Part shown: positions 5,157 through 23,000 of the stretch, in pieces
Layout: every line of letters begins with the position of its first letter
Numbering within the stretch: position 1 is the first letter of the stretch
Assembly (NCBI GenBank): GCA_017614155.1
Contig: JAGACK010000046.1
Span: 24,541-88,540, forward strand
Length of the DNA stretch: 64,000 nucleotides
Direction: 5' to 3'
Source of the DNA: Lachnospiraceae bacterium
Lineage (GTDB): Bacteria > Bacillota > Clostridia > Lachnospirales > Lachnospiraceae
Position numbers and translations under genes: made by a program
The notes under the pieces: model-generated
Databases searched by the model: none
What the model was told of the DNA's origin: nothing
Seen by the model: the letters and a program-made list of their open reading frames with translations, nothing else

Positions 5157-8100
5157 AAGCCTTCACTGAACCCCTTAAAGATCTGGGTATCTTTGATGAA
5201 CTGCAAAGTGCCGTCAGATGCGCCGGTATCACCGATGTGGATGGCGTGGTTGACGGGGCAAAGACCTTTCTGGCCCATGCCCTGAAAAACAGCGGCATAA
5301 GTGTTTTTGTCACTTCCAATGATGCTGCGGCAAGGCAGATGGTGGAAGAAAACCTGCTTTTTACCAGGAATGTCTTTTATTATCCTGCAAAGGATATAAT
5401 CTTTTATCAGTCGGACTTAAGCGGAAATTTCCTGACAACACAGAGGATGTCTGCGATAAAGGCGCTGACGGAGTATTCCGGGGGTCAGAGCCTTGTGATA
5501 GTGACGACTTTTGATGCCCTCATGGAAAGGGTTCCGAACCTTTCGACTATTACCGATGCCGTGATCCGCATTAAAACAGGGGATGTCATCGATATTGCCG
5601 GACTGTCAAAAAAACTCGTGTCATGCGGATATGAAAAAAGCGTCGAGGCGCAGTCGCCCGGACAGTTTGCCGTCAGGGGCGGGATCATTGATGTTTTCGG
5701 ACTTACTGATGACAATCCTGTAAGGATCGAGCTTTGGGGCGATGAAGTTGACTCCATCAGGGGCTTTGACGCCATGAGCCAGAGATCGATAGAAAAGCTT
5801 GAAACGGTTACGGTGTATCCTGCTACAGATCTTGTGATCAGTGAGGATGCAGGAAGAGACGCGTCTTTTGTGATCAGAAAAGAAGCAGAGGAAAGAGAAG
5901 CTTATTTCAGGTCACGGATGAAGACCCAGGAGGCTCACCGGATAAAAACAAGCGTAAATGAATTTCTTGAACAGCTTGAGGAATGCGCATCTGCCGCAAA
6001 TGCCGCGGCCTTTATCCCTTATTATTTTGATGAACTGGTAACGCTTGCAGACCGTTTCCCGGAAGATACGGTGTTTTTTCTCGACGAGCCTTCAAGGCTT
6101 GAGGAAAAGGGAAAAAATACCGAAGCGGAGTTTTCGGAGAGCATGACGCACAGGCTTGAGGGGGGATATATCCTTGCCGGACAGACAGGGATCCTTGAAA
6201 GCACAGAGGCAGTGTTCGCAAAGCTTTCAAAAAGGAGCTGCATCTCTTTTTCCACGCTCAGGATGAAGCATGACAGTTACAGGGAAAGGGCAGCCCTGAG
6301 CCTGCTTTCAAGGCCTGTGGCGGCGTATAATAAAAGCTTTGAGATGCTTTCGTCAGATCTGAAGAAGAAGAAAAAAGACTCGTTTCGGACGATAATCCTT
6401 TCGCCTTCGCATACGAGGGCAAGGCATATAGCGGATGATCTGACTGAAAATGAGGTGACGGCGTTTTACAGTGAAGATCCCGAAAGGGTTCCTCAGAAGG
6501 GCGAGGTGATGACTGCCTACGGGAGCCTGGGCAAAGGTTTTGAAATGCCGGATATAGGATTTCTCGTCATCTCGGAAACTGATATTTTCGGAAGCGGGAA
6601 AAAGAAGAAAAAAAGGCATGTCAGGTACGAGGGAACAAAGATAGCAAGCTTCACCGACCTGGTCATAGGCGACTATGTGGTGCACGAGAACTTCGGCATA
6701 GGCATTTACCGCGGGATAGAGCATATCGAGATAGAGGGAGTGGTCAGGGATTATGTCAGGATCGAATATGCCGACAACAGTTTCGTAAATGTCATAGCCT
6801 CAAATCTGGAGTCGCTTCAGAAATATGCATCCTCCGATACGGATAAAAAAGTTAAGATTCACAGGATCGGTACCGGCGAGTGGAAAAAGACAAGGCAGAG
6901 AGTCAGGGGGGCAGTCCAGGGTGTCGCAAAAAAACTGGTCGAGCTCTATGCCGAAAGGATCCAGGAGAAGGGTTATGTCTTTTCGGAGGATACCCAGTGG
7001 CAGCGGGAATTTGAAGAGATGTTTCCCTTTGAAGAGACGGAGGATCAGCTCCGGGCCATAGAGGATGTAAAAAGGGATATGGAAAGCCGCAGGATCATGG
7101 ACCGTCTCATCTGCGGCGATGTCGGATTCGGAAAGACCGAGGTCGCGATCAGAGCTGCATTCAAGGCCGTGCAGGAAGGGAAGCAGGCAGCCTTTCTGGT
7201 GCCCACGACCATCCTTGCCGAGCAGCATTACAACACCTTCATCCAGAGGATGGCGCGGTATCCGGTAAGGACAGAGCTCCTTTGCAGGTTCAGGACGCCC
7301 TCGCAGCTTAAAAAGACCATACAGGGACTGAAGGACGGAACGGTCGACATAGTCATCGGGACGCACAGGCTTCTTTCAAAGGATGTTGCCTTCAAAGACC
7401 TGGGGCTTCTGGTCGTGGATGAAGAGCAGAGATTCGGCGTGACAGCAAAGGAAAAGATAAAGGAACTGAGGAAAAATGTGGATGTGCTGACGCTTACCGC
7501 AACGCCCATACCAAGAACTCTTCATATGTCCTTAGTCGGAATCAGGGACATGAGCCTGCTTGAGGAGGCGCCGGAGGACCGCCTGCCGATACAGACCTTT
7601 GTGATGGAATACAGCGACGAGACCGTGCGCGAGGCCATAAACCGCGAGCTTGGAAGAAACGGGCAGGTCTACTACGTCTATAACAGGATAAATGACATAG
7701 CCGACATCACTGCGAAAATCCGGACGCTTGTGCCGACGGCTGTGGTCGAATATGCCCACGGCAGGATGGAAGAAAGAAAGCTTGAAAACATCATGCTTGA
7801 TTTCATAAACGGGGATATAGATGTTCTGGTATCGACGACCATAATAGAAACGGGACTGGATATTCCCAATGTCAACACCATGATAATCCATGATTCCGAC
7901 AGGATGGGGCTTGCACAGCTGTATCAGCTGCGCGGCAGGGTCGGAAGGTCCAACAGGACAAGCTATGCTTTCCTGATGTACAAAAGAGACAAAATGCTGA
8001 GGGAAACGGCAGAAAAGAGACTTGCCGCGATCAGGGAATTCACGGATCTGGGGTCGGGCTTCCGCATTGCCATGAAGGACCTGGAGATCAGGGGGGCAGG

Positions 8101-8665
8101 CAATGTGCTGGGCGCCGAACAGTCGGGGCATATGGAGGAAGTGGGATATGACCTGTACTGCAGGATGCTCGACAGCGCGATAAAGCAGGAAAAGGGAGAA
8201 GACACCGTTCCGGAGTTTTCCACCTTCCTTGACATGGATGTGGATGCCTACATACCGAACACCTATGTGAGAAATGAGAATATCAAGCTTGATCTTTACA
8301 AGAGGATCGCATCCATCGAGACAGAGGAGGAAGCTTCGGATATGGCCGATGAACTTTCCGACAGATTCGGACAGATACCGAAAAGCGCTCAGAACCTCAT
8401 AAGGATCGCGCTGCTGAGGGCAAAGGCGCATATGATCTACATAGAAAAAATGGAGGTAAGAAAAGATCATATCAGGTTTGATATGTTCATGAACGCCCAG
8501 GTGGATCCGGCTGCCATCGCGCCGATGCTTGCAGGGTTTGAGGGCCGGATGTCTTTCAGGACAAAGGGAAAGCCCTGTTTTGTGTATGAGATAAAGGGTG
8601 AAAAAAAGGACCTCATCGATGTGGCTGACGAGGTCCTGGATAAGATGCAGGTGCTGGTGCAGTGA
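5153..8665 (+). CDS. mfd: Transcription-repair coupling factor Mfd
   Basis: A 1170-aa superfamily 2 translocase that pushes RNA polymerase off lesions and recruits UvrA. Order of domains: UvrB-like N-terminal module (about residues 1-350), the RNA-polymerase-interacting domain around residues 500-560 (GDYVVHENFGIGIYRG), a RecG-like motor with Walker A GDVGFGKT near residue 653 and DEEQRFGV near 755, the later motor motifs ATPIPRTLHM and QLRGRVGRS, and a C-terminal TRCF domain. The length matches the family. It overlaps pth by 4 bases and is probably cotranscribed with it. It ends 17 bases from the convergent pncB, with no clear terminator in between. Confidence 0.97.
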   Translation: MKAFTEPLKDLGIFDELQSAVRCAGITDVDGVVDGAKTFLAHALKNSGISVFVTSNDAAARQMVEENLLFTRNVFYYPAKDIIFYQSDLSGNFLTTQRMSAIKALTEYSGGQSLVIVTTFDALMERVPNLSTITDAVIRIKTGDVIDIAGLSKKLVSCGYEKSVEAQSPGQFAVRGGIIDVFGLTDDNPVRIELWGDEVDSIRGFDAMSQRSIEKLETVTVYPATDLVISEDAGRDASFVIRKEAEEREAYFRSRMKTQEAHRIKTSVNEFLEQLEECASAANAAAFIPYYFDELVTLADRFPEDTVFFLDEPSRLEEKGKNTEAEFSESMTHRLEGGYILAGQTGILESTEAVFAKLSKRSCISFSTLRMKHDSYRERAALSLLSRPVAAYNKSFEMLSSDLKKKKKDSFRTIILSPSHTRARHIADDLTENEVTAFYSEDPERVPQKGEVMTAYGSLGKGFEMPDIGFLVISETDIFGSGKKKKKRHVRYEGTKIASFTDLVIGDYVVHENFGIGIYRGIEHIEIEGVVRDYVRIEYADNSFVNVIASNLESLQKYASSDTDKKVKIHRIGTGEWKKTRQRVRGAVQGVAKKLVELYAERIQEKGYVFSEDTQWQREFEEMFPFEETEDQLRAIEDVKRDMESRRIMDRLICGDVGFGKTEVAIRAAFKAVQEGKQAAFLVPTTILAEQHYNTFIQRMARYPVRTELLCRFRTPSQLKKTIQGLKDGTVDIVIGTHRLLSKDVAFKDLGLLVVDEEQRFGVTAKEKIKELRKNVDVLTLTATPIPRTLHMSLVGIRDMSLLEEAPEDRLPIQTFVMEYSDETVREAINRELGRNGQVYYVYNRINDIADITAKIRTLVPTAVVEYAHGRMEERKLENIMLDFINGDIDVLVSTTIIETGLDIPNVNTMIIHDSDRMGLAQLYQLRGRVGRSNRTSYAFLMYKRDKMLRETAEKRLAAIREFTDLGSGFRIAMKDLEIRGAGNVLGAEQSGHMEEVGYDLYCRMLDSAIKQEKGEDTVPEFSTFLDMDVDAYIPNTYVRNENIKLDLYKRIASIETEEEASDMADELSDRFGQIPKSAQNLIRIALLRAKAHMIYIEKMEVRKDHIRFDMFMNAQVDPAAIAPMLAGFEGRMSFRTKGKPCFVYEIKGEKKDLIDVADEVLDKMQVLVQ

Positions 8666-8682
8666 TAGCTGTTTTGCCTGCG

Positions 8683-10149
8683 TCAGGAAAATGTTTTTCC
8701 TTCTACTGACATTTCGTTCAAAAGATTTATCTTCATGTCGTAGAGCTTTTTTGAAAGATCGACATGTACATTATGAGGGTTGACCAGACGCCTGGTCTCT
8801 TCCCACAGTGTATCAAGCTCCTTTTTGCAGAATTCCCTCATTTCCATAACGGTTGGTGATTCGTATACGCATTTTCCCTCGTCAAAGACTTTGATCATGA
8901 TCTCGCGCAGCGTGAATTCGCCGGGTTTCAGATATGTCTTTTTCCAGGGCTCTGAAGGGTCAAAGAGCAGAAGCTCTTCATCCTCTTTGAAGGTCTCTTC
9001 TTCAAGGCAGATCAGATCGGCTTTTACCTTGCCTTCCGCATCATATACCCTGTAGATCTTTTTGTTTCCGGGATTTGTGATCTTTTCGCTGTTTTCCGAA
9101 AGCTTGATCTTTGGAATGAAGGAACCGTCCTTTGATCGTATCGCTGCAAGCTTGTATACCCCGCCGAAAGCAGGCCAGTCCTTTGAGGTTATGAGATTTG
9201 TACCGACGCCCCAGCTGGTGATCTTTGCTCCCTGAGCCTTCAGTGAATCTATCAGGAATTCATCGAGATCGTTGCTGGCAGAGATGACAGCATCCGTAAA
9301 GCCCGCGTCATCGAGCATCTTTCTGGCCTTTTTTGACAGATAGGCAAGGTCTCCGGAATCAAAGCGGATACCGTACAGTTTCGGATGGATGCCCTTTTCC
9401 TTCAGTTCCTGAAATACCTTTATGGCATTCGGGACGCCGCTTTTTAAGGAATCGTAGGTGTCCGCGATAAGGAGGCACGCGTCGGGATAGATCTCGGCAT
9501 ATTTTCTGAAGGCTGTAAGCTCATCGGGAAAGCTCATTACCCAGGAGTGGGCATTCGTGCCCTTGACCGGAACATCAAAGAGCTGTCCGCAGAGCACGTT
9601 TGAAGTCCCGATACAGCCACCGATCATGGCCGCCCTTGCGCCGTATGTTCCCGCATCCGGACCCTGCGCACGCCGAAGCCCGAATTCCATCACGCCGTCG
9701 CCTCTTGCCGCAAAGCAGACCCTTGAGGTCTTGGTAGCGATCAGCGACTGGTGGTTTATGATGTTTAAGATCGCGGTCTCGATCAGCTGTGCCTGCATGA
9801 TCGGAGCGATGACCTTCACGATAGGCTCTCTCGGGAATATGACCTCGCCTTCCGGGATCGAGTATATGGTGCCCGTGAAACGGAAGGTTTTCAGATATTC
9901 GAGGAAGTCCTCCCTGAAGATTCTAAGTGAGCGCAGGTAATCTATATCTTCTTTTTCGAACCGGAGTTCTTTTATGTATTCTATCATCTGCTCGAGGCCG
10001 GCCATGACGGCATAGCCGCTCTCGAGAGGATTTGTGCGGTAGAACATGTCAAAGATAACGGTCTGGTTTGCGTTTTCGTTTTTGAAGTAGCCCTGCATCA
10101 TTGTCAGCTCGTACAGATCGGTCAAAAGAGTCAGGTTCTGTCTGTCCAT
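8683..10149 (-). CDS. pncB: Nicotinate phosphoribosyltransferase
   Basis: Converts nicotinate and PRPP to nicotinate mononucleotide in the Preiss-Handler NAD salvage pathway. The 488-aa protein carries LTDLYELTMMQGYF at the N-terminus, EFGLRRAQGPDAG for PRPP binding, GTNAHSWVM with the phosphorylatable His (about residue 201), and GIRFDSGDLAYLSKKAR. The length fits the long Gram-positive type. It is transcribed alone from the promoter at 10186-10214. Confidence 0.95.
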   Translation of the reverse strand: MDRQNLTLLTDLYELTMMQGYFKNENANQTVIFDMFYRTNPLESGYAVMAGLEQMIEYIKELRFEKEDIDYLRSLRIFREDFLEYLKTFRFTGTIYSIPEGEVIFPREPIVKVIAPIMQAQLIETAILNIINHQSLIATKTSRVCFAARGDGVMEFGLRRAQGPDAGTYGARAAMIGGCIGTSNVLCGQLFDVPVKGTNAHSWVMSFPDELTAFRKYAEIYPDACLLIADTYDSLKSGVPNAIKVFQELKEKGIHPKLYGIRFDSGDLAYLSKKARKMLDDAGFTDAVISASNDLDEFLIDSLKAQGAKITSWGVGTNLITSKDWPAFGGVYKLAAIRSKDGSFIPKIKLSENSEKITNPGNKKIYRVYDAEGKVKADLICLEEETFKEDEELLLFDPSEPWKKTYLKPGEFTLREIMIKVFDEGKCVYESPTVMEMREFCKKELDTLWEETRRLVNPHNVHVDLSKKLYDMKINLLNEMSVEGKTFS

Positions 10150-10185
10150 ATCATCCTCCGTTGGTGATGTACTGTGTTTCTATAA

Positions 10186-10214
10186 ATTATGCTTTTTTGG
10201 AGGGGTAAAGTCAA
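10186..10214 (-). promoter_or_regulatory. Sigma-A promoter of pncB
   Basis: Read on the minus strand: TTGACT (10214-10209), a 17-base spacer and CATAAT (10191-10186). It lies about 40 bases upstream of the pncB start codon. Confidence 0.72.
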
Positions 10215-10261
10215 TATGGGGAGGGGGCCGTACCTGCGACCCTGATTTTGTGTGTTTTACA

Positions 10262-10293
10262 GGTATCATAACGACTCGAAAAAGGGCGTCGCA
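10262..10293 (+). repeat. Left copy of a 32-bp inverted repeat bounding the RHS island
   Basis: These 32 bases, beginning GGTATCATAACG and ending GGGCGTCGCA, match the reverse complement of 19659-19690 at 31 of 32 positions. The two copies enclose the broken transposase and the RHS locus. The right flank (10299-10330) can fold into a GC-rich hairpin containing GCACC/GGTGC. Confidence 0.8.
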
Positions 10294-10413
10294 GCACAGA
10301 GCCTGCAGGCACCTTGGCGGGTGCGGCTCCTGTGTGTGGGGCACGGGAGAGAATGACAGTTCAATTGTTTTGGAATTGATTTTATTATACTATGAAAAAA
10401 AGAAGGAAAAGGG

Positions 10414-11086
10414 GGAAATGTAATACCAGATGCTTATAAGGAAGTTATATCTGACATGGAGGTAACTGAGGTCAGAAGAAAAGCCAGTGATGAGGGGGAT
10501 GAAGATGAAGAAAAAGCTTCCATATATGGTACACCTGAAGAGATGCAGGAAAGGGCAAAAGAAAGAAATTTTGTAAGAGACCCGGAACGAAATCTGGTCT
10601 ACTGTCCTAACGGAGAGATCCTCAGACAGAAATGCGTAAAGAAAAATGGGAATATAAGATATGCCAATAAAAATGCCTGCCGTCATTGTCCTAACAGGAA
10701 CAAGTGCTATAAAGGTAAGAACGAGTGGAAAGAGATAGACTTCACAAAAGATTGTTTGGAGAAGCCGTGTCGAGACTGGTTAAAAGCTGAAGGAAAAACG
10801 CTTGATAAAAATAAAGTGCCAAAGGGAAAATACCACTTTGAGATAAAGAAAGTTGTCAAGTTTTTCCTAAAGCCAAAACGGGAAAAAAACGGCTGAACGA
10901 ATGTGCCTGTCGGAGCATCCGTTTGGAACTATAAAAAGAGCTATGGGATTCACCTGCTTCCTGCTAAAAGGCATGAGGAAGGTGACGGGGGAGTTTGCGC
11001 TCATGTGCCTTGGGTACAATATAAAACGAGCTAAAAACTTGCTTGGATTTAATAAAATGATGGAATTGATGGTGGCAGGAGCCTGA
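10414..11086 (+). pseudogene. Degenerate IS1182-family transposase (C-terminal remnant, frameshifted)
   Basis: Frame 1 from about 10414 to 10896 encodes a Cys-rich segment (CPNGEILRQKC, CRHCPNRNKC) typical of IS1182-type DDE transposases. It stops at a TGA, but the next frame (10901-11086) continues with SEHPFGTIKRAMGFTCFLLKGMRKV and GEFALMCLGYNIKRAKNLLGF, the conserved family C-terminus. The run of seven A at 10883-10889 is the likely frameshift point. The N-terminal half, including most catalytic residues, is missing and no good start codon exists, so this is a dead fragment. Confidence 0.82.
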
Positions 11087-11288
11087 AAACCATCCGTATA
11101 TGCGCTTTATTCAGTTGTTAAGGTCAGATATTAATTTCTAACGAAATATAGCATATTTGATGCAAAAAACAGGCTACAGATCGCTGAAAATCAAGGTTTT
11201 CGGACGGTCTGAGGGGGGTAACGGCGGTCACACGATAATGTACTGTGGGCTATGTCAAAATATAAAGCAGTAACGGAAAAGTTCCTGC

Positions 11289-11317
11289 TTGACAACTGCA
11301 TTCAGATTTAGTAAAAA
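11289..11317 (+). promoter_or_regulatory. Promoter of the riboswitch-RHS transcript
   Basis: A perfect TTGACA (11289-11294), a 17-base spacer and TAAAAA (11312-11317; AAAAAT with an 18-base spacer is equally possible). Transcription would start near 11325, just ahead of the riboswitch aptamer. From 11087 to 11288 I see only remnants of the insertion element and no gene. Confidence 0.6.
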
Positions 11318-11339
11318 TAAAGACTGTTGAGGGGTTTTT

Positions 11340-11432
11340 GTTCATATATTTTCGGCAAACCTGAGGAAATTCAGGGACGCAAAGCCAGAGTCTAAGATAA
11401 TACAGGGGGTTATCGTATTATTATGATTGTTC
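11340..11432 (+). promoter_or_regulatory. c-di-GMP-I (GEMM-I) riboswitch aptamer
   Basis: The GEMM-I core is present: GGCAAACC (11354-11361), a hairpin CTGAG-GAAA-TTCAG with the expected GAAA tetraloop, then GGGACGCAAAGCC. A second arm follows: a perfect 7-bp stem (11397-11403 with 11415-11421) enclosing AGGGGGTTATC, close to the family consensus GCGGGGTTACC. CTAAG at 11392-11396 and TATGA near 11422 resemble the two sides of the 11-nt tetraloop receptor. The class binds cyclic di-GMP. It sits between the promoter and a strong terminator ahead of the RHS gene. Confidence 0.9.
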
Positions 11433-11468
11433 GGCTGCAGTGATGACACTGCAGCCAATTTTTGTTTT
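11433..11468 (+). terminator. Riboswitch expression platform terminator
   Basis: A perfect 10-bp GC-rich stem (11433-11442 with 11447-11456, loop ATGA) is followed by AATTTTTGTTTT. It begins directly after the aptamer and ends 28 bases before the RHS start codon, so c-di-GMP binding could switch between termination and readthrough. The direction of the switch cannot be read from the sequence alone. Confidence 0.88.
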
Positions 11469-11496
11469 AACAGATTTTGAGGGGAGAGATACACAT

Positions 11497-14400
11497 ATGT
11501 CCGCCAATAAAAAGCACTACAGAAACAAACTGATATTGATGCTTGCCTTTGTCCTGGCCTTCGAGCATCCTCTTGCTATTTTTGCGTCTGAAAATACAAC
11601 ACCTGAGGCAGTTTTGGATAATACGGTTTCTGAAGGAGAAATACCCGGGGATGGCATATCAGATGATAACCCGCCGGAGGAGGCAGTACCTGAGGATATG
11701 GTTTCAGAGGACACCATTCCGGAGGAGAGCACCTCAAAAAATTCCGTTCCACCTGATACGGTTTCAGGAAATGTAAGCAATAACAGCGCTTCTGACAATG
11801 ACATATCCGGCAATTCTGTGTCAAATAATTCTCTTTCTGAAGATGAGATTCCCGACGGCTATTATGCAGATGAGGGCTATGAGCATTATGAGATGTCCTC
11901 CGTCAGCCCGGATGATCTTTTGCATGAGCTTCCCCGGTACAGGTCGGAAAATGTCAAGGTGTATGAGCATCCCGACCACAGCGTGACGGCTTATTACTAC
12001 GCAGAGCCGGTCAATTATGAGCGCAGTGACGGAAGCTTTGCGACCATAGACAACAGACTTCATTTTTCGGAGGGCAGCAGTGAGAATAAGGTCTTTGCGG
12101 GATATACCAATACCTCTGCGCCCTTTCGCCTAAGGTTTGCCCAGGCGGCGGATGAGAGAAAGCTTTTTGATTTTTCGGATGATACCTTCGAGGTTTCTTT
12201 CATATATGTCCCATCTTCAAAAACTGTTTTTAATACAGACAATATATCTGTTTCGTCATCGGAGGCTGTTTCAGGTAATACTGTTTGGAAAACTCCGGCG
12301 GAGCTGATAGATACGGAGGCAAACGAAAAAAAACATTCGGATGAAGCTGTTATTACGGCAGCAGGCGGGGAGGATGATGCTCCCGCCTCAAATGATACAG
12401 ATACAGAAAACCCGCTTCCCGTTCTTCCCAATCCCCAGACAGTCCTCTATGAAAATATAGAAAACGGAGTCACCCTGAGATATCTCCCCATAAGCGACGG
12501 AGTAAAGGAAACCATAGTAGTAAGCCGCAATGACGCTCCGTCTGTTTATACCTTTGACCTGAATGTCAGGGGCTTAAAGGCTGTCATGGAAGAGGGAAAC
12601 ATCCTCCTTAACGATTCTGACGGTCAGACCCTGTATGAGATCCCGGCACCCGTGGTCACAGACGGGGCAGGAAACACAGACTGCGAAGCTTACTATGAGC
12701 TTGAGACCATAGAGGAGTCCGGGAAATACAGACTGAAGGTCTTTGTAGATGAGGAGTGGCTTGAGGATGAGGCGAGAGTATTTCCCGTCGAGATAGATCC
12801 CACCATGCGCAGGTTCAGGAAATATAAAGACTGGTCAGCCCTGGGGGATTTTGTCAGCGTGCGATCTGACGGAAAGACAAGTGAAAAAAGTCTTGTTACC
12901 GGAACAAAGAGCAAAAAGGTAAAGAAAAAGACAAAAAAGATAAAAAGCCGCATATACATGAGACCGACCCTGCCCGAGATACCAAAGGGAAGTGTCGTCA
13001 CAAAGGCAACGCTTACCGTTTCCGTCTCAAACCTAAGCGGAAGCGTCAAAAATTTCTATGCTGTCGCAGTTCCCGGCAAATGGAGCAGAAAGAGTATCAA
13101 ATGGGACAATCAGCCCTGTAATGATGCCGCATTAAAGAAGTGCCTAAAAAGGATCAGTGATTACGGTACTGACGGTGATTCTGTGAGCCTTGATATCACA
13201 AGGGATGTAAAAAACTGGACCTCAGGGAAGGTATCATACAACGGGCTTTGCTTTATCACGGCAAATGAAAACAAGAATGCCACCAAGGAAATAGAGCCTT
13301 TAAGAGACAGTAAAAAGCCCTTTCTTTCCGTCACCTACAGGGATTTTACGGGACTGGAGGATTACTGGAGCACCCATACCCAGGGAGCAGGCAGCGCAGG
13401 TACGGGAAGCATAAATGATTATACGGGTTCCCTGACCTTCGTCCATCAGGATGCAAAGAGCGCAGGTGAAAGGATGCCCTTATGTGTATCCCATGTCTTT
13501 AATGACACCTACGGAGATCGCCCAGGAGAGGAAAAGTGGGATGATACGGCAGGCACTGCCTACGGAGAGCATTTCAGGCTTTCGACGGATGTGAGGCTCC
13601 TCGTGCCTGTGGGAGAAACAGATATAAAAAAATATCCCTATGTCTATATAGATTCAGACGGCACAAAGCATTTCTTCAAAAAATCAAAGGTTACCTACTA
13701 CGTAAATGGCGCATCAAAAAACGCTGCGGAGGATAATAAGGAGCACCCGGCAGCAAAGGATGAGGACGGTCTGGGTCTTTTTGCAGTGCCCGTGACGAAC
13801 GCCGATCTGAAGGGAAAATATCCCTTAAAGATAGTCAATAAAAGCGGAAGCACCTCCATGTACTTTGATGCATCGGGTTATCTTGGCATGATAACCGACT
13901 CCAATCAGAGAGAGGACGGCAAAAACTCCCAGAAAAAGGATAGAAACGCCATAACCATAGAGCATTCATCGCAGGATCACGATGGCGAGGGTGATAAGAC
14001 AAGGCTTAGAGCGTTCCGTGACGAGATAGAGACCTACAAAGAGAAAACCTCCTCCGCCAATGATATCTATGATGCATGTGAAGACGGGATAGCAAGGCTT
14101 GAAGCCTTTGAGAACGAATGCCTTTATGTCTGTGTCAATTATCCTGCGGCGATCTGTGTACAAAATGCCAAAATCCATCTGCAGAACATTATAGACGGTG
14201 CAGCTAAGAGCAAAAGAAAGGAGCAGATAAATGCTGCGCTTGACGAGCTTGACAAGCTCCTGAAAAAAGACTTCAAGGCAGCAAAAGAAAAAACCGTTTC
14301 CGTAACCGATGCCGCAGGCATAAAAAGCAATCTTAACTACGATGCAAACGGGCGTCTCATATCCATGACCGATCCCTTCGAGCAGAACAGAGAGATAACC

Positions 14401-17400
14401 TACACCTATGATAAAAACTCATATCTGACAAAGATCACTCATCCAAACGGTGAAACGGCAGCCTTTACCTATGATGACAAGGGTCACCTGCTTTCGGCAA
14501 AGGATGAGACCGGAAAAAGGATAGTCTACAGATACGGGACAAAGAAAAAGCCTTCGGAAAAGGTCACTGCCATGCGTGAGTTTGTAAAAAAGGCAGGTGG
14601 TCAGACTGTCCTTATTAACTACGATGATTACAATAAGACCGCCTTTACCTATACGGGCTGCGATGAAAAGATAAATACAGATGATGATATCGAAAATGTC
14701 TGCTGCTTTGATGACAAGGGTCGTACCACAGGCTCCTATTTAAGGGTTAAGAAAACGAAAAAGATAATAGGAGCCGGCTCTTATGCCTACTCAGACGAGG
14801 GCTCTGCGGCAAACCACCTCAAGGAATCGTCCGCTGCGGGAGGCCCCGTCATAAATCTTTTGACGGACGGAAGCTTTGAAAAAAAGAAGACGAAGGCATG
14901 GGAGAGGGTTGATGAATGCAATAAGGGCGAGGATTGTCATATTATCGAGAAAACCGAAACAAAAAAATATATGGGTTCAAGGTCTGCTCATGTAAAGCTT
15001 ACCGGAAAGGCTGAGCATACAGGCAGGATCGGCTACAGGCAGACCGTGACTGCAAATGCCACGGGCTATTATACCGCCTCCGTTTATGTAAAAGCATGTA
15101 ATATCAAAAACGCAAAGGCTGTGCTTTCGGTAGAAGTAAATGACAAGGAAAAGGGCACAAAGGGAGATGAAGAGGAAAACGATGAGACCGATACGGATCC
15201 GCAGGATGAGGTTGATCCCGACGACCCTGACCTGTATGACCCGGGCGACGGTGAAAACTTTGATGAAGAGGATGACGATGAGGATACCCCGGGCTCACAG
15301 GAGGAGGGGACGGTTGATGAAAATACTCCCGCCGAGTTCACAAGCGGCTGGAAACGCATAGAGACAACCGTAAAGGTAAAAAAGGGACAAAGTATCACCG
15401 TCGGCCTATACGGAGAGGGAGAAAGGGCGGATATATATTTTGACTGCGTCCAGCTGGAAAAGGGAAGGGTTGCGGGACAGTACAACCTGCTGCCTAATTC
15501 AGGCTTCGAGATGGGCTCATATTCCAAAAAGAAGGGATCAAAGGTTATCCCTGCAGGCTGGGCATATACCGATGATTCCGGTGTGGTTGATGCAAGGCTT
15601 GTGACATCAAAGGAGCTGGGAGGCGGAAAGAACAGGGTGGCAGAGGGAAAATATGCCCTGTGCATTTCCGGAAATACCGGGAAAAAGAAGGTGCTTGTGG
15701 CAAATCCCAACTTCGGAAAGGGAAAGGTCTCCTACACCTTTTCCTGCTATGTCATGACCTCCTGTGCGCCGGTGCACGGCGACCGTAAATGCTGCATCTA
15801 TATAAAGGGTGACATGCCCGAATTCGATGAGAGCGACCCTATCCAAAAGCTCTTAAAGGATATGATAAAGGAGGAGGATATCGCTCCGGCGGCATACACC
15901 GAGATAAATACCGGTATAGAGGGCTGGCAGTATGTGACCATGCAGCTTCCTGTCAGGGACTGGAGCGGCAAGCGCATAGAGATACACTTTGACAAGGAAT
16001 GCGGAACCCTGTGCATAGACGGCTGTATGCTCACAAGGGATGAGGTGAAGGCAAAGACCTATACATCATCGGGAAAGCTTAAGACCTCAAAGGACGGTGA
16101 GAGGACCACCACCTATGCCACAAACAAGCGTGATCTTCAAAGCAAGGAGACCATGCCTGCGGGAGCCACAACCACCTACAAGTATAATAAGATCACAAAC
16201 GACCTGAACGAGGAGGCGCATACCTTTACCCAGTCAGGCAAGAAAAAGGTTGACCGGACCAGATACACCTATGACAGGTTCGGAAATCCCATCAAAACCT
16301 TAGAAACCGGACCCTCAAAGAGAAAGCTTGTGACAGAGAGCGTTTATTCGGGAGACGGGCGTTTTGAGATTTCTGACAATAACAGCAGGGGATATGTGAC
16401 GGCATATGAGTATGACACGGCAACGGGCATGGTAAAAAGCTCTACGGATCCTAAAGGGAAGCAGACCCTTTATGAATACAATGCCTTTCATGATCCCACG
16501 GCTGTAAAGTTTGAAGGCTCAGCGGTTTCCTTTAAGTACGAAAAGGATGATCACAGCAGACTGGAAACCATAACCGCCGGTACGGGTAAGGAAAGCATTA
16601 AATATAATTTCGACTATAACAGCTTCGGAAATGTTGCAAAGATCAAAAGATCAGGCTCTGATACCGATCTGATAGGGTACAGCTATGGCGCACGAAACGG
16701 AAAGCTTAAAAAGATAACCTACGGAAACGGCAGTACCGTATCCATGCGCTACAATACCCTCGAGCAGCTGACGAGAAAGCGCTACAGCGACGGAAATATC
16801 TACTATTACTACGATAACAAGGGCAGAACCGCCCGTATAAGCGACACAAAAAATAAGCTGGGCTACAGCTTTAACTATGACGAGACAGGAAGAGTCACGG
16901 ACTCGTCCGTCTACAGGACGAAGAAGGCAAAGGGTGAATCCTCAAACGAGATCATCCGCTTCGGAAGCCTCTATGACAAGGCCGGCAGACAGTCCGCCTT
17001 CACCTATCGTTATGACGGTAAGACCTATCGCTCTAAGTACGGCTATACCACTGATGACAAGCCCTCTGTAACGGCTCTTGCAAGCGGCGGCTGGTATAAG
17101 ACAGGATATGACAATCTGTCAAGGACTGCCTCTGAAACCTTCATATCCCAGAAAAACAAGGCGACAAATGAAAGCAAGGCAAGAAAGACCGGAGCGACCG
17201 TAAAGACGACCATCACCTATCTGGATACGGACAGGAAGGGTGATGAGGGTATCTCTACGGACAAAAAGAAGTATGAATTTACCACCGCCCTTCCCGGAGT
17301 GATAGAGGTAAAGGCCGGAAAGAAGAGCATCTTAAAGGAGAGTCTGTCCTATGATAAGACAGGCAGGATATCCGGCTGGAATGGTACAGGCTACAGCTAT

Positions 17401-18762
17401 GACGGTCTGGGGAGACTCGTATCCGCAAGGGACGGCGGTGGGAGAGAGTGGAGCTATGAGTACGATTCCGTAGGGAACATCACAAAGAGCTCATATTTTG
17501 ACGGAACAGACGTTACAGAGGATAAGTATGACTATAAAAACGGAAATCTCACAAAGTTCAACGGTAAGAGTATAGGCGGATACAAGGGAGGAAATCCCGG
17601 AACATATCTCGGGAAAAAGCTTACCTGGGAAAGAGGCAGGCTGCTGTCAAGGATAGGTGGGAATATATCATACACCTATGATCTTGACGGCATACGCCTT
17701 TCAAAAACTGTAGACAATAAAAAAACAGAGTATATCACAAACGGCAGCACCATCCTGGCGGAGAAGCGGGGAGGTGAGGTCTTAAACTATTATTATTCCG
17801 CTGACGGAAAGCTACTTGAGATCGGCTATTCAAAGAACGGAGCTTTAGAAAATCACTATACCATCCTCAGGAATGCCATGGGAGATGTGGCAGGACTCCT
17901 TGACCCCAAGGGAACCTTGGTGGGCACCTACGAATACGACCCCTACGGAAAGCTCATAAAGATCAATCACAACAGCGAATATACAGATACAGATGGAATA
18001 CTCGAGCGCAACCCCTTCCGCTACAGAGGCTACTACTACGATACCGAAACCGGCTGGTATTACCTGCAAAGCCGCTACTATGACCCTGCCGTAAAGCGTT
18101 TCATAAATGCAGATACAACGGATCTTCTGACTAATGACTGTGTGAATCTCATGCAGTACAATCTCTTCATGTACTGCAACGGTGATCCGGTGAATAATAC
18201 AGATTATAGCGGCAGGCTCACGGATGTTGAAAGATATTTTCTTATGGCTACTACATTAGCTGCGTTTGCAGCTGTTTTGGTCATAACAGGAGGTACCGGA
18301 GCCATAGCAATGGGAGCTGTAATCGGGGTGACCGGAGGTGCTGCGATAGGCTTTGGAGCAGCCGGAATAGCGAGTTTGCTTAATGGATCAGATGCAAATA
18401 CAGCAATCTCAAATGCAGCGGATGGGCTTGTCATTGGAAGTACTGTTGGCATGTTTGGTGGAGCTGCTGCCGGTGCATGTATTACCGCAACTACAATGAG
18501 TACAGAAACAGCTGCATGTTATGCAAATGCATCGGCTGGAGTGTCCAATGAAAAAGGCCAAATGTTAGATTATGACTTGCAATTTTTTGCCAAAAAAAGA
18601 GATATTCAACAAATAGAAAAAATCTCTAAAATTTTTAAGATAGATAGACGGGCTTATGGGGATTTTGTAGAGGATTTTAAGAAATGGGAGGGATTACCAA
18701 GTAATTATACTTTTTCATTTAATAGATTAAAAGAATTAGCTAGGATTTTTAAGAATCAGTAG
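11497..18762 (+). CDS. Secreted RHS/WapA-like polymorphic toxin
   Basis: A 2421-aa protein. The frame is open from an ATG at 11440, but that codon lies inside the terminator stem; ATG 11497, preceded by GAGGGGAGAG and followed by a signal peptide (KKHYRNKLILMLAFVLAFEH), is the real start. Order: signal peptide; acidic Ser/Asn-rich linker (about residues 35-120); a DNRLRE-like beta domain before GLEDYWSTHTQGAGSAGTG; two carbohydrate-binding-like modules (LLTDGSFE, LLPNSGFEMG) separated by an Asp/Glu-rich stretch; many YD repeats; the RHS core end (NPFRYRGYYYDTETGWYYLQSRYYDP); a Gly/Ala-rich hydrophobic stretch; and an unrelated AT-rich C-terminal tip (DLQFFAKKRDIQQIEKISK to the end). WapA-type proteins deliver such tips in contact-dependent inhibition. 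Toxin activity is inferred. Confidence 0.88.
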   Translation: MSANKKHYRNKLILMLAFVLAFEHPLAIFASENTTPEAVLDNTVSEGEIPGDGISDDNPPEEAVPEDMVSEDTIPEESTSKNSVPPDTVSGNVSNNSASDNDISGNSVSNNSLSEDEIPDGYYADEGYEHYEMSSVSPDDLLHELPRYRSENVKVYEHPDHSVTAYYYAEPVNYERSDGSFATIDNRLHFSEGSSENKVFAGYTNTSAPFRLRFAQAADERKLFDFSDDTFEVSFIYVPSSKTVFNTDNISVSSSEAVSGNTVWKTPAELIDTEANEKKHSDEAVITAAGGEDDAPASNDTDTENPLPVLPNPQTVLYENIENGVTLRYLPISDGVKETIVVSRNDAPSVYTFDLNVRGLKAVMEEGNILLNDSDGQTLYEIPAPVVTDGAGNTDCEAYYELETIEESGKYRLKVFVDEEWLEDEARVFPVEIDPTMRRFRKYKDWSALGDFVSVRSDGKTSEKSLVTGTKSKKVKKKTKKIKSRIYMRPTLPEIPKGSVVTKATLTVSVSNLSGSVKNFYAVAVPGKWSRKSIKWDNQPCNDAALKKCLKRISDYGTDGDSVSLDITRDVKNWTSGKVSYNGLCFITANENKNATKEIEPLRDSKKPFLSVTYRDFTGLEDYWSTHTQGAGSAGTGSINDYTGSLTFVHQDAKSAGERMPLCVSHVFNDTYGDRPGEEKWDDTAGTAYGEHFRLSTDVRLLVPVGETDIKKYPYVYIDSDGTKHFFKKSKVTYYVNGASKNAAEDNKEHPAAKDEDGLGLFAVPVTNADLKGKYPLKIVNKSGSTSMYFDASGYLGMITDSNQREDGKNSQKKDRNAITIEHSSQDHDGEGDKTRLRAFRDEIETYKEKTSSANDIYDACEDGIARLEAFENECLYVCVNYPAAICVQNAKIHLQNIIDGAAKSKRKEQINAALDELDKLLKKDFKAAKEKTVSVTDAAGIKSNLNYDANGRLISMTDPFEQNREITYTYDKNSYLTKITHPNGETAAFTYDDKGHLLSAKDETGKRIVYRYGTKKKPSEKVTAMREFVKKAGGQTVLINYDDYNKTAFTYTGCDEKINTDDDIENVCCFDDKGRTTGSYLRVKKTKKIIGAGSYAYSDEGSAANHLKESSAAGGPVINLLTDGSFEKKKTKAWERVDECNKGEDCHIIEKTETKKYMGSRSAHVKLTGKAEHTGRIGYRQTVTANATGYYTASVYVKACNIKNAKAVLSVEVNDKEKGTKGDEEENDETDTDPQDEVDPDDPDLYDPGDGENFDEEDDDEDTPGSQEEGTVDENTPAEFTSGWKRIETTVKVKKGQSITVGLYGEGERADIYFDCVQLEKGRVAGQYNLLPNSGFEMGSYSKKKGSKVIPAGWAYTDDSGVVDARLVTSKELGGGKNRVAEGKYALCISGNTGKKKVLVANPNFGKGKVSYTFSCYVMTSCAPVHGDRKCCIYIKGDMPEFDESDPIQKLLKDMIKEEDIAPAAYTEINTGIEGWQYVTMQLPVRDWSGKRIEIHFDKECGTLCIDGCMLTRDEVKAKTYTSSGKLKTSKDGERTTTYATNKRDLQSKETMPAGATTTYKYNKITNDLNEEAHTFTQSGKKKVDRTRYTYDRFGNPIKTLETGPSKRKLVTESVYSGDGRFEISDNNSRGYVTAYEYDTATGMVKSSTDPKGKQTLYEYNAFHDPTAVKFEGSAVSFKYEKDDHSRLETITAGTGKESIKYNFDYNSFGNVAKIKRSGSDTDLIGYSYGARNGKLKKITYGNGSTVSMRYNTLEQLTRKRYSDGNIYYYYDNKGRTARISDTKNKLGYSFNYDETGRVTDSSVYRTKKAKGESSNEIIRFGSLYDKAGRQSAFTYRYDGKTYRSKYGYTTDDKPSVTALASGGWYKTGYDNLSRTASETFISQKNKATNESKARKTGATVKTTITYLDTDRKGDEGISTDKKKYEFTTALPGVIEVKAGKKSILKESLSYDKTGRISGWNGTGYSYDGLGRLVSARDGGGREWSYEYDSVGNITKSSYFDGTDVTEDKYDYKNGNLTKFNGKSIGGYKGGNPGTYLGKKLTWERGRLLSRIGGNISYTYDLDGIRLSKTVDNKKTEYITNGSTILAEKRGGEVLNYYYSADGKLLEIGYSKNGALENHYTILRNAMGDVAGLLDPKGTLVGTYEYDPYGKLIKINHNSEYTDTDGILERNPFRYRGYYYDTETGWYYLQSRYYDPAVKRFINADTTDLLTNDCVNLMQYNLFMYCNGDPVNNTDYSGRLTDVERYFLMATTLAAFAAVLVITGGTGAIAMGAVIGVTGGAAIGFGAAGIASLLNGSDANTAISNAADGLVIGSTVGMFGGAAAGACITATTMSTETAACYANASAGVSNEKGQMLDYDLQFFAKKRDIQQIEKISKIFKIDRRAYGDFVEDFKKWEGLPSNYTFSFNRLKELARIFKNQ

Positions 18763-18795
18763 GTTGAAATTATTATTATTTTTGCGAGGGTAAAG

Positions 18796-19191
18796 ATGAA
18801 CTATAAATTTGTATTAAGAATAAGCGGGGAGGACATGGATTTTGATTACATTTGTAATAAGTTGGGGCCAGAGAATTGCGATAAAAAGAAAAAGGGTGAT
18901 AAATTTGCTGGTTTTATAAGTGTTCCACATGACACGGTTATATTTGAAAAAAATTATTCTGATTTTGAATACGGATCACAAGATTTCATTATGCACTTAT
19001 ATTATAAAAAAAACGTACTAAATAAAATAAAAAAAATGAATAGTATTAATTTATATCTATGTTGTTACATTTGCTCAGAGATGGGACAAATTGGTTTTTT
19101 TGTTTCAAGCACTATTATGAAATACTTATCAGAAATTGAACTTGATCTCAATTTTGATATTCTTTCCTTTGGGTTGGCGGAGGTAGATTAA
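18796..19191 (+). CDS. Candidate immunity protein for the RHS toxin tip
   Basis: A 131-aa protein of no family I recognise, 33 bases after the RHS gene, with GCGAGGG as ribosome binding site. It is very AT-rich and Lys/Asn/Tyr-rich (NYKFVLRISGEDMDFDYI, YYKKNVLNKIKKMN), unlike the GC-richer host genes but like the last 200 bases of the RHS gene. No signal peptide is visible, so it should be cytoplasmic. Position directly after a polymorphic toxin tip, small size and shared base composition are the classic pattern of an immunity gene. The function is inferred from context only. Confidence 0.6.
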   Translation: MNYKFVLRISGEDMDFDYICNKLGPENCDKKKKGDKFAGFISVPHDTVIFEKNYSDFEYGSQDFIMHLYYKKNVLNKIKKMNSINLYLCCYICSEMGQIGFFVSSTIMKYLSEIELDLNFDILSFGLAEVD

Positions 19192-19363
19192 GCTTAGGAC
19201 AGCTCAAAATAAAATTCAGAGTTTGTTAGAAAATGAAAAGATAAACGATATTCCGCAAAATCCTAATATAAAAAGTGGCAAATGCGGACACAACGGATCT
19301 TCTGACCAACGACTGCGTGAATCGATGCCACCGCATCGCCGCATTCAGACGCCTTGCAGATAA
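19192..19363 (+). pseudogene. Orphan rhs fragment left after tip exchange
   Basis: Bases 19281-19322 encode NADTTDLLTNDCVN, the same 14 residues as 18106-18147 inside the RHS core, with five substitutions, all synonymous. The flanks differ: before it is an AT-rich stretch that reads KLRTAQNKIQSLLENEKIND in another frame, possibly the tail of an older tip; after it the sequence diverges at once. It looks like a scar of an earlier rhs tip or a displaced cassette. Confidence 0.62.
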
Positions 19364-19658
19364 AAAATCATTCTGCGTAAAAAGTCCAGATATTTGAAAA
19401 CTGCTATACTAGGCTTCTGTAGATTTATTATGAGTTATCAAGCCCATCCATTACTATTACCGGCGGGCCGGATCCTCCAGGGAGTATACCTTGTTAAGGT
19501 ATGCCTTCTGGCACAGTGTAACAAAAATAATCATCTTGCATCTTTCCACCACCGCTTACTTCTTCAAGCTTTCGCATCATCATTTCAAGGATCAGATACC
19601 TATAATATTTCATGTAACGTTCATGTCAAAATCTATGTATGGGCCGCGGATGCTGTTT

Positions 19659-19690
19659 TGCGACGCCCTTTTTCGAGCCGTTATGATACC
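19659..19690 (-). repeat. Right copy of the 32-bp inverted repeat
   Basis: Reverse complement of 10262-10293 with one mismatch. It begins TGCGACGCCC and ends TTATGATACC. It marks the distal edge of the RHS island. Confidence 0.8.
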
Positions 19691-19925
19691 CGGAAAACGC
19701 AATTAAACAGGGATGCAGGTACATGGATGTACCTGCAAGGCCGCATGAACATGGATGTGAATTGCGGCCGACCCGTCACTCCGGCAGATTCCGGAGGCGT
19801 TTTCCCGATATCATAGGCGAGAAAAAACCGGCGAGCAAAACGGGATCTGCGGCCCAGACAAATCACCGCGGGAATTCAGATTTTGCACATTTCCGTGGGG
19901 TGAGACGGCAAAACCAAGGCAAAGT

Positions 19926-19986: not shown

Positions 19987-19992
19987 TTCGTC

Positions 19993-20021
19993 TTGTTTTT
20001 TTGGCGGCGAATTGGTATCAT
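19993..20021 (+). promoter_or_regulatory. Possible promoter of ileS
   Basis: TTGTTT (19993-19998), 17 bases, TATCAT (20016-20021), about 38 bases before the ileS start. The match is moderate. Confidence 0.45.
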
Positions 20022-20058
20022 ATTGAAGTGTGTGTAAAAAAGATATTTGGAGGCAGAA

Positions 20059-23000
20059 ATGTACGAGAAAGTCAATACCGACCTGAATTTCGTGGATCGG
20101 GAGAAAGAGATCGAGAAGTTCTGGAAGGACAATAAGATATTCGAAAAATCAATGGAAATACGCAAAGGGTGCGATACCTACACCTTTTATGACGGTCCGC
20201 CCACAGCAAACGGGAAACCGCATATAGGACATGTTCTGACCAGGGTCATAAAGGATATGATACCCAGATACCGCACGATGAAGGGATATTTTGTCCCGAG
20301 AAAAGCCGGATGGGATACACACGGACTGCCCGTTGAGCTTGAGGTTGAAAAGAAGCTCGGACTTGACGGAAAGGATCAGATAGAAAAATACGGACTGGAG
20401 CCCTTCATAAAGGAATGCAAGGAATCAGTCTGGAAATACAAGGGGATGTGGGAGGATTTTTCCTCAACTGTCGGCTTCTGGGCTGACATGGATGATCCCT
20501 ATGTGACATATGAGGATGACTACATAGAATCCGAATGGTGGGCCTTAAAGACGATCTGGGACAAGGGACTGCTCTATAAGGGCTTCAAGATCGTGCCTTA
20601 CTGCCCGCGCTGCGGAACACCTCTTTCATCACACGAGGTGGCCCAGGGCTACAAAAATGTAAAGGAAAGATCCGCTATAGCAAGGTTTAAGGTAAAGGGA
20701 GAGGATGCCTACATCCTGGCATGGACAACAACCCCCTGGACCCTTCCTTCCAATGTGGCGCTCTGCGTCAATCCGGATGTTGATTATATAAAGGTAAAGA
20801 CAAAGGACGGCTATACATATTATCTTGCACAGGCCCTGGCCGAAAAGGTGCTCGGAGGAGAAGAGACAGCTCCCTACGAAGTGCTTGAAAAGTACACAGG
20901 AAAGGATCTTTGCGGGAAAGAATACGAAGCCCTGTTTGAATGCTCTGCGATCGAAGCGGAAAAGCAGAAAAAGAAGGCTCACTTTGTGGTGGCGGATAAT
21001 TATGTCACGACAGAAGACGGTACCGGAGTTGTCCATATAGCTCCAGCATTCGGCGAGGATGACGCGAGGGTCGGAAGAGAGAACGATCTTCCGCTGGTAC
21101 AGTTTGTGGACGAGAGCGGAAACATGACAAAGGAAACACCCTTTGCCGGAAAATTCGTAAAGGATGCCGACAAGGATGTGCTCGTGGATCTTGAAAAGAG
21201 AGGACTTCTGTTTTCGGCTCCCAAGTTTGAACATGATTATCCTTTCTGCTGGAGATGCGACACACCTCTCATTTATTATGCAAGAGAGTCATGGTTCATA
21301 AAGATGACCGCTGTCCGGGACAATATGATCAAAAACAACGATCAGATAAACTGGATCCCTCCGACGATCGGCACGGGAAGGTTCGGAGAGTGGCTCAAGA
21401 ACCTCCAGGACTGGGCAGTATCAAGGAACCGTTACTGGGGAACCCCCTTGAATATCTGGGAGTGCCCTGACTGCAAAAAGAGGGTATCCATAGGATCTAG
21501 GGAGGAACTCTATAAGCTGTCCGGAAATGAAAAGGCAAAGACGGTTGAGCTTCACAGGCCTTTCATAGATGATATAACGATCAAGTGTGATGAGTGCGGC
21601 GGCACGATGAAGAGAGTGCCTGAGGTTATTGACTGCTGGTTCGATTCGGGAGCCATGCCTTTCGCGCAGCATCATTATCCTTTTGAAAATGAAGATCTTT
21701 TCAAGAGCCAGTATCCGGCATCATTCATAAGCGAGGCTGTGGATCAGACGAGAGGCTGGTTCTATTCGCTGCTTGCCGAAAGCACCCTGCTCTTTGACAG
21801 CCCCTGCTATGAAAATGTCATAGTCCTCGGACTGGTTCAGGATGCCGACGGACAGAAGATGAGCAAGTCAAAGGGAAATGCGGTTGATCCTTTTGACGCC
21901 CTGGAGAAATTCGGAGCGGATGCCATCAGATGGTATTTCTACATTAACTCGGCGCCCTGGCTTCCCAACCGTTTCCATGATGACGCGGTGACGGAGGGTC
22001 AGAGGAAGTTCATGGGAACTCTCTGGAACACTTATGCGTTCTTCGTGCTCTACGCGAACATCGACGGCTTTGATGCTTCAAAATACAGCCTTGAAAAGGA
22101 CAAGCTGCCCGTTATGGACAGGTGGATCCTTTCAAAGCTCAACGCCTGCATCAAAGAGACAGATAATGATCTTGATAACTACAGGATCACCGAGGCGGCA
22201 AAGTGCCTGCAGGAATTCGTGGATGACCTGAGCAACTGGTATGTCAGACGCTGCAGGGACAGGTTCTGGGCAAAGGGAATGGAGCAGGACAAGATAAATG
22301 CCTATATGACGCTTTACACCTGCCTCGTTGATATCTGCCGCGCGGCAGCTCCCATGGTACCTTTCATGACAGAGGAGATATACCAGAACCTGGTGCGCTC
22401 CGTCAATAAGGAAGCGCCGGAATCCATACATCTGACTGATTATCCCGTATGCGATGAGACGATGATAGATGAGACGCTCATGAGGGATATGGATGAGGTT
22501 CTCGACATAGTGGTTCTTTCAAGGGCTGCAAGGAATGCCTGCAATATCAAGAACCGCCAGCCTATAGCAAAGATGTATGTGAAGGCTGAAAATGAGCTTT
22601 CAAAATTCTATAAGGACATCATAGCCGACGAGCTCAATGTCAAGGAGGTGGAATTCTCCGATGATGTCAGGAACTTCACGACCTATACCTTTAAGCCGCA
22701 GCTGAAGACTGTAGGACCTAAATACGGAAAGGTCCTTGGAAAGATCAGGGAATATCTTTCATCCCTTGACGGAAATGCGGCAATGGATGAGCTTGAAGAA
22801 AAGGGCGAGCTTAAACTTGATGCCGACGGCACAGAGGTTGCACTTTCAAAGGATGATCTTCTTATCGAGATGACAAGCCGCGAAGGCTTTGTCGAGCAGT
22901 CGGATAATAAGATCACGGTGGTGCTTGACACGAACCTGACGGATGACCTGATCGAAGAGGGATTCGTGAGGGAGCTTATCTCAAAGATCCAGAACATGAG

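Follow-up and report, generated by a model that had tools for sequence, protein, structure and literature searches.

A c-di-GMP-I riboswitch predicted to act as an ON-type attenuator ahead of an island-borne RHS toxin-type gene in a Lachnospiraceae bacterium

Introduction

Riboswitches that sense c-di-GMP are known upstream of motility, adhesion and pilus genes, and in V. cholerae a class I switch lies upstream of the gene for TfoY. In B. thuringiensis, the class I switch Bc2 precedes cap, which encodes a collagen adhesin, and is described as an ON switch with c-di-GMP promoting read-through (PMC4933901). C. difficile 630 carries 12 class I switches, of which seven are reported to be functional and all of those to be OFF (PMC6366702). 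The functional ones precede flagellar, protease, adhesion and small-protein genes. In two cases a class I switch stands before the antitoxin RNA of a prophage-borne type I toxin-antitoxin pair (PMC6366702, PMC11477304), and the pilin operon has a class II switch (PMC11477304). The review of these systems warns that the direction of a switch is not transferable between species (PMC6366702). TfoY of Vibrio is described as acting in type VI secretion at low c-di-GMP (PMC6618264).

Here we describe a class I switch ahead of an RHS polymorphic-toxin-type gene in a stretch of 64,000 nucleotides of a Lachnospiraceae genome, referred to below as the window. As in Bc2, a class I aptamer is followed by an intrinsic terminator directly upstream of a surface-protein gene, but where Bc2 has a collagen adhesin as its target, the gene here is of the RHS toxin type, island-borne and accompanied by a DUF4279 gene (PMC4933901). 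With the C. difficile switches the locus shares its aptamer class, a clostridial host and terminator control (PMC6366702, PMC11477304); those class I switches that function there are reported as OFF (PMC6366702), whereas ON is predicted here. The Vibrio TfoY system likewise ties c-di-GMP to an antibacterial weapon, but does so indirectly via a regulator protein and in the opposite direction, at low c-di-GMP (PMC6618264). The WapA/Rhs toxins of Gram-positive bacteria, as described in S. suis (PMC12704120), are exported RHS-repeat proteins with an exchangeable C-terminal toxin, the form predicted for the protein here. In the literature, mostly screened below full text, no control of WapA/Rhs toxins by a c-di-GMP riboswitch was found, nor any report that connects the two. 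The riboswitch is of known class, fold and mode; its RHS target is unreported as far as our searches show.

Our main reading, to which we assign a probability of roughly 0.7, is that an ON-type c-di-GMP-I riboswitch controls, by attenuation, an island-borne RHS toxin-immunity module.

Results

Layout of the leader

The original prediction placed a promoter, a GEMM-I aptamer with a GAAA tetraloop and tetraloop-receptor-like elements, and a perfect 10-bp terminator before the RHS gene, and these parts were all found in that order (Table 1). The proposed comparison with the Rfam c-di-GMP-I model bore out the aptamer, with a significant match that lies well above the gathering score of 35 (E computed for the whole window), spans the full model from 1 to 87 and makes RF01051 the top-scoring model of its clan at this place. 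GGCAAACC, the GAAA tetraloop capping P2, GGGACGCAAAGCC and the receptor-like UCUAAG/UAUGA in P3 all align to the model; GGGGGUUAUC falls within the apical part of an extended P3 helix that has an AU-rich 7-bp stem. The conserved contact-equivalent positions G11354, C11380, A11381 and C11438 are all present. We take G11354, C11380, A11381, A11383, U11436 and C11438 to correspond to G20, C46, A47, A49, the U partner of A49, and C92 of Vc2, so that the Vc2 counterparts of U11436 and C11438 presumably pair with A49 and with a ligand guanine, respectively. The ligand contacts described for Bc2 are A11, C37, A38 and C89; aptamer positions 11, 37 and 38 here coincide with the first three, with a G at position 11 where Bc2 has an A (PMC4933901).

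Table 1. Features of the switch, the RHS module and the surrounding island, in window positions
Feature	Position	Strand	Basis
Island, 9.6 kb (edges approximate): transposase fragment, riboswitch, RHS, DUF4279	10160-19808	+	Comparison with G321
Transposase fragment, DDE_Tnp_1_6-like, left side of island	10456-10896	+	E 0.00037, 21.2 bits, below Pfam cut-off of 25.1
Candidate sigma-70-type promoter, TTGACA-N18-AAAAAT	11289-11318	+	10/12 consensus positions
Predicted alternative ligand-free helix (11333-11343/11375-11386), hiding aptamer core GGACGCAAAGCC	11333-11386	+	Minimum-energy fold of terminated leader
c-di-GMP-I (GEMM-I) riboswitch aptamer	11344-11442	+	RF01051, 60.2 bits, E 2.8e-9
Intrinsic terminator, 10-bp stem, ATGA loop	11433-11456	+	Sequence, fold, shuffle comparison
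Shine-Dalgarno-like AGGGGAGA	11480-11487	+	Sequence reading; 9 nt upstream of ATG
RHS polymorphic-toxin-type surface gene, 2421 aa	11497-18762	+	Open frame from ATG; domain profiles
Putative immunity gene, DUF4279, 131 aa	18796-19191	+	PF14106, E 2.7e-7, 31.3 bits (cut-off 25); position behind RHS tip
44-bp duplicate of RHS core end (18105-18148), 89% identical	19280-19323	+	blastn, E 2.3e-8

The terminator reads GGCTGCAGTG-ATGA-CACTGCAGCC followed by AATTTTTGTTTT, with all 10 pairs formed as claimed and a U tract at 11459-11463; one terminator was found in the region against a shuffle mean of 0.2. Its 5' arm (11433-11442) includes the 3' strand of aptamer P3, so that aptamer and terminator share 11433-11438. 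The arm GGCTGCAGTG opens with the GGCT that closes the base of P3 by pairing with AGCC at 11383-11386, and also contains U11436 and C11438. The promoter fared less well: the site with 10 of 12 consensus positions is plausible, but the number of such sites in the region (two against a shuffle mean of 1.0) is near chance.

In the assembly of this genome, which has 59 contigs and is 94.7% complete, the switch is the single c-di-GMP-I match found, and the genome's one RHS core lies adjacent to it. A c-di-GMP-II search of the genome gave no match, as did its controls, and no relatives of the leader were found in plasmids or phages.

The RHS gene, its tip and its neighbour

An RHS core followed by a variable tip and a small gene is a toxin-immunity layout. 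The predicted polymorphic-toxin type was confirmed at the level of architecture: the protein has RHS repeats (PF05593, E 1.3e-30) and a Rhs_assc_core at residues 2147-2239 (TIGR03696, 63 bits, cut-off 32.5), and the small DUF4279 gene stands in the immunity position. The signal peptide that had also been claimed is a likeness by eye, with an N-terminus that is lysine-rich and then hydrophobic. The C-terminal tip of 66 aa matched no Pfam or NCBIfam toxin family, and PDB searches with the tip and with the putative immunity protein returned matches at chance level only. Because the tip matches no family, the reading of the protein as toxic rests on its architecture. The duplicate of the core end downstream of the DUF4279 gene is probably the scar of an older C-terminal tip that was displaced by the present tip and immunity gene, which points to tip exchange.

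The DNRLRE/CBM96 module at residues 472-613 and the absence of a match between the tip and known toxins would also suit a working switch whose RHS protein is an adhesin or wall protein, not an antibacterial toxin. The toxin-immunity layout of Rhs_assc_core, variable tip and small downstream gene argues against this, and so does the tip exchange suggested by the probable scar. With c-di-GMP switches described ahead of adherence genes (PMC6366702) counted in its favour, we regard the adhesin reading as unlikely.

Genomic island and distribution of the pairing

The island sits between a nicotinate phosphoribosyltransferase gene and ileS. G321, the closest relative compared, lacks 10160-19808 of the window and matches on both sides of it, in the same order and on the same strand, at 8000-10159 (83%), 19809-19854 (89%) and 19992-20997 (86%), with 370 bp separating the first two matching segments in G321. 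Its ileS fragment has 97% protein identity, and its phosphoribosyltransferase gene and ileS lie about 0.5 kb apart with order and strands as in the window. The leader, RHS gene and DUF4279 gene are therefore a unit that was either gained here or lost in relatives. In G324 and G329 (L168, L169) the phosphoribosyltransferase gene is next to ileS but inverted relative to 8694-10151 of the window and to G321; no such gene was found next to ileS in G313 or G318.

We also noticed a TwoAYGGAY RNA (RF01731, 19667-19828, + strand, 65.6 bits against a cut-off of 43) where the island ends on the right, some 220 nt upstream of ileS. TwoAYGGAY is a candidate structured RNA, and it gave no match at the gathering threshold in the stretches scanned from five relatives.

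Of 48 genus genomes, 3 hold relatives of the RHS N-terminal region, as do 33 of the 299 family genomes (the window's own included in both counts) and 43 contigs of the GTDB collection. Together, 31 loci from the genus and family genomes and the 43 GTDB contigs make 74 RHS-relative loci, in which at least four contigs are apparently duplicated, judging by their length; for 67 a simple ORF script gave a closed ORF start preceded by 300 nt or more. No switch was found at any of the 74, 67 of them with a readable upstream region: cmscan at the gathering threshold returned no Rfam match for 31 RHS-relative loci, and a model of our own (R1), run over the 74 loci and the window's, returned the window's switch and a single other match, at chance level and within an RHS gene (L097, E 5). 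As a control, it found the switch in all 80 family loci outside the model, these having been pre-selected as RF01051 matches.

RHS cores were also sought in 80 of the 109 other switch-bearing family genomes (29 left out) and in 69 class genomes. Among the matches listed, no RHS core lies within 20 kb downstream of a switch (119 switch places, 142 RHS rows); nor does one among all 103 listed RHS rows on the 17 contigs where a switch is listed too, which give 93 same-strand pairs with 35 switch places. In G326 a switch and an RHS relative both occur, though not on the same contig. Since no other RHS relative was found with a switch, the evidence for the pairing comes from a single locus of a single genome.

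This distribution, with no switch at any of the 67 RHS relatives with a readable upstream region, and the adjoining transposase fragment are what would be seen if aptamer and RHS gene had become neighbours by accident of island assembly, with a switch that is left over from another gene, or locked, and hardly affects RHS. In C. difficile 630, too, only seven of the 12 class I switches are reported as functional (PMC6366702). However, the core of the aptamer and its contact positions are present, as are the terminator, the ribosome site and the ATG, all correctly spaced, and the terminator arm matches the aptamer 3' end in each of its 10 pairs, a complementarity that would be lost by decay. We consider a relic quite improbable.

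Folding and direction of control

Assuming a transcript start near 11325, the predicted free fold of 11325-11470 consists of the terminator state and the alternative helix, at -40.4 kcal/mol, and the same leader with the aptamer enforced is predicted at -34.0 kcal/mol, a gap that ligand binding could pay for. When the leader is folded step by step, pairing of the P3 base appears at 11438 and persists until the terminator is complete at 11458. Some points weigh against an ON switch. Already at 11442, ahead of the complete terminator, the aptamer is the less stable choice, its enforced fold (-23.7 kcal/mol) lying 3.4 kcal/mol above the best free fold (-27.1 kcal/mol). This and the other intermediate free folds conceal part of the aptamer by pairing 11325-11333 with 11349-11357, and the aptamer-enforced fold still draws a 6-bp remnant of the terminator hairpin that uses C11438. 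None of the folds made of the leader contains an anti-terminator competing with the aptamer. Because the 5' arm of the terminator contains the 3' strand of the aptamer, including U11436 and C11438, the two folds are mutually exclusive, and an ON switch is therefore predicted. According to these models, the leader would be an ON-type attenuator that raises the expression of the RHS and DUF4279 genes at high c-di-GMP.

In the proposed mechanism, at low c-di-GMP the nascent leader would fold into the terminator, assisted by the alternative helix and its masking of the aptamer core, so that the polymerase would stop ahead of the RHS gene. With c-di-GMP bound, GGCUGC (11433-11438) would be held in the P3 base and the ligand pocket, the full terminator stem could not form, and the polymerase would read into the RHS and DUF4279 genes. 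The RHS protein would then be exported via its signal-peptide-like N-terminus and may act as a WapA-like contact toxin in the sessile, high-c-di-GMP state, with the DUF4279 protein as its putative immunity partner. The original prediction named no direction of control; the one predicted here fits the coupling to sessile life that had been proposed, a coupling that we infer.

We compared this arrangement with 111 c-di-GMP-I loci of the family, among the matches listed: the window's, 30 others and 80 more, the 80 drawn largely from the upper end of the list, where tandem copies were counted as one and several short-contig places were passed over. The first arm of the best terminator overlaps the aptamer end in 24 of the 111, that is, at the window's locus and 23 others; it lies downstream in 50, and no terminator was found in 37. 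The aptamer end TTCGGYYGCA occurs in 19/24 overlap-type loci, 0/50 with a separate downstream terminator and 1/37 without a terminator found, hence in 1 of the 87 outside the overlap type. This association is partly built in because the overlapping arm must match the aptamer end; the TTC of the motif lies mostly outside the arm. The four aptamers nearest to the window's among 132 compared are all overlap-type, and the fifth and sixth are not.

A separate downstream terminator, as in those 50 loci, is a layout that could allow OFF control, and all seven functional class I switches of C. difficile are reported as OFF (PMC6366702). If the same held here, c-di-GMP would favour the terminator and RHS would be expressed in the motile state. 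At this locus, however, the terminator uses the very nucleotides of the ligand-bound aptamer (11433-11438) and the folds lack an anti-terminator competing with the aptamer, both of which make an OFF switch very improbable.

The genome contains 30 GGDEF matches, a potential supply of c-di-GMP. GEMM-I variants with other ligands are known, but a G at the G20-equivalent position is the standard c-di-GMP form, and this G (11354), the rank of RF01051 within its clan and the GGDEF matches together make another cyclic dinucleotide such as cGAMP a highly unlikely candidate for the ligand.

Related switches in the genus and family

A c-di-GMP-I switch is present in 22 of the 48 genus genomes, the window's included. 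A gene for a CAP-domain secreted protein lies downstream of 25 of the 28 other genus switches (L032-L057), a count that includes four second copies of tandems; for the remaining three no CAP gene was found within the sequence stretch examined. The CAP-domain protein is small and secreted, and some of its switches stand in tandem. We considered whether the window's switch is the genus's usual CAP-gene switch and rejected this, given its different P3 and different 3' end. The overlapping terminator also speaks against a CAP-type identity, as one was found in none of the 28 (14 with no terminator found, 7 weak, 7 downstream).

Several kinds of genes stand behind the overlap-type switches of the family. 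L007 precedes a PilB-type ATPase gene (PF00437) and L224 a PilB-type gene recognised by eye; PilB-type genes at both places are those of type IV pili. Behind L234 stands a row of FHA, MinD-like and PP2C genes, which we take to resemble a Tad pilus operon, L018 and L198 precede secreted or surface proteins, and several others precede genes without a family match. Pilus and surface-protein genes behind such switches are what would be expected if these are ON at high c-di-GMP.

At three further places, where co-transcription is assumed, the genes are of other kinds. In G082 (L233/L251; L251:362-4975, + strand) an overlap-type switch is followed by a YwqH-like gene (23.9 bits, below the cut-off of 33.7), a DUF5344-like gene (18.5 bits, below the cut-off of 27), a gene for a 539-aa protein without family match and a DUF4176 gene (108.9 bits, above cut-off), together with three genes of 216-217 aa that are 76-87% identical to each other. 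The row has the look of a type VII toxin operon whose three related genes may be an immunity array, and presumably resembles ywqHIJK of B. subtilis. Behind the overlap-type L201 switch, a 152-aa gene of no clear family is followed, at L201:1813-2221 (- strand), by two double-glycine-leader peptides and, by eye, an ABC ATPase; the one peptide scanned scored 20.5 bits for Bacteriocin_IIc, below the cut-off of 27.1. In G131, the overlap-type switches L017, L184 and L193 precede small, partly repeated genes without a known family. In L252 (G131:C29:1-12500) at least three c-di-GMP-I switches lie within 7 kb, and L017 and L193, at least, precede arrays of small related genes without a known family.

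The link of these sister switches to antibacterial genes other than RHS is less certain, a lead and not a result. It is possible, though we would put it forward only tentatively, that the family holds a distinct ON-type c-di-GMP-I subfamily, whose 3' end TTCGGYYGCA also serves as the first arm of the terminator, and that this subfamily lets one signal govern both weapons (RHS here, the YwqH/DUF5344/DUF4176 type VII-like operon of L251, the bacteriocin-like peptides of L201) and pili or surface proteins, settling and fighting being turned on jointly.

Discussion

If the main reading of an ON-type attenuator ahead of an RHS toxin-immunity module is true, a single RNA links c-di-GMP directly to a contact-toxin gene with no regulator protein in between. 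The bacterium would then arm itself on becoming sessile, settling and fighting being wired together, and the control element could travel with the weapon on an island. The leader is also a short RNA with which one can ask when Gram-positive RHS toxins are made. For the family as a whole, the association of TTCGGYYGCA with an overlapping terminator, if borne out, would make the direction of its c-di-GMP-I switches readable from sequence.
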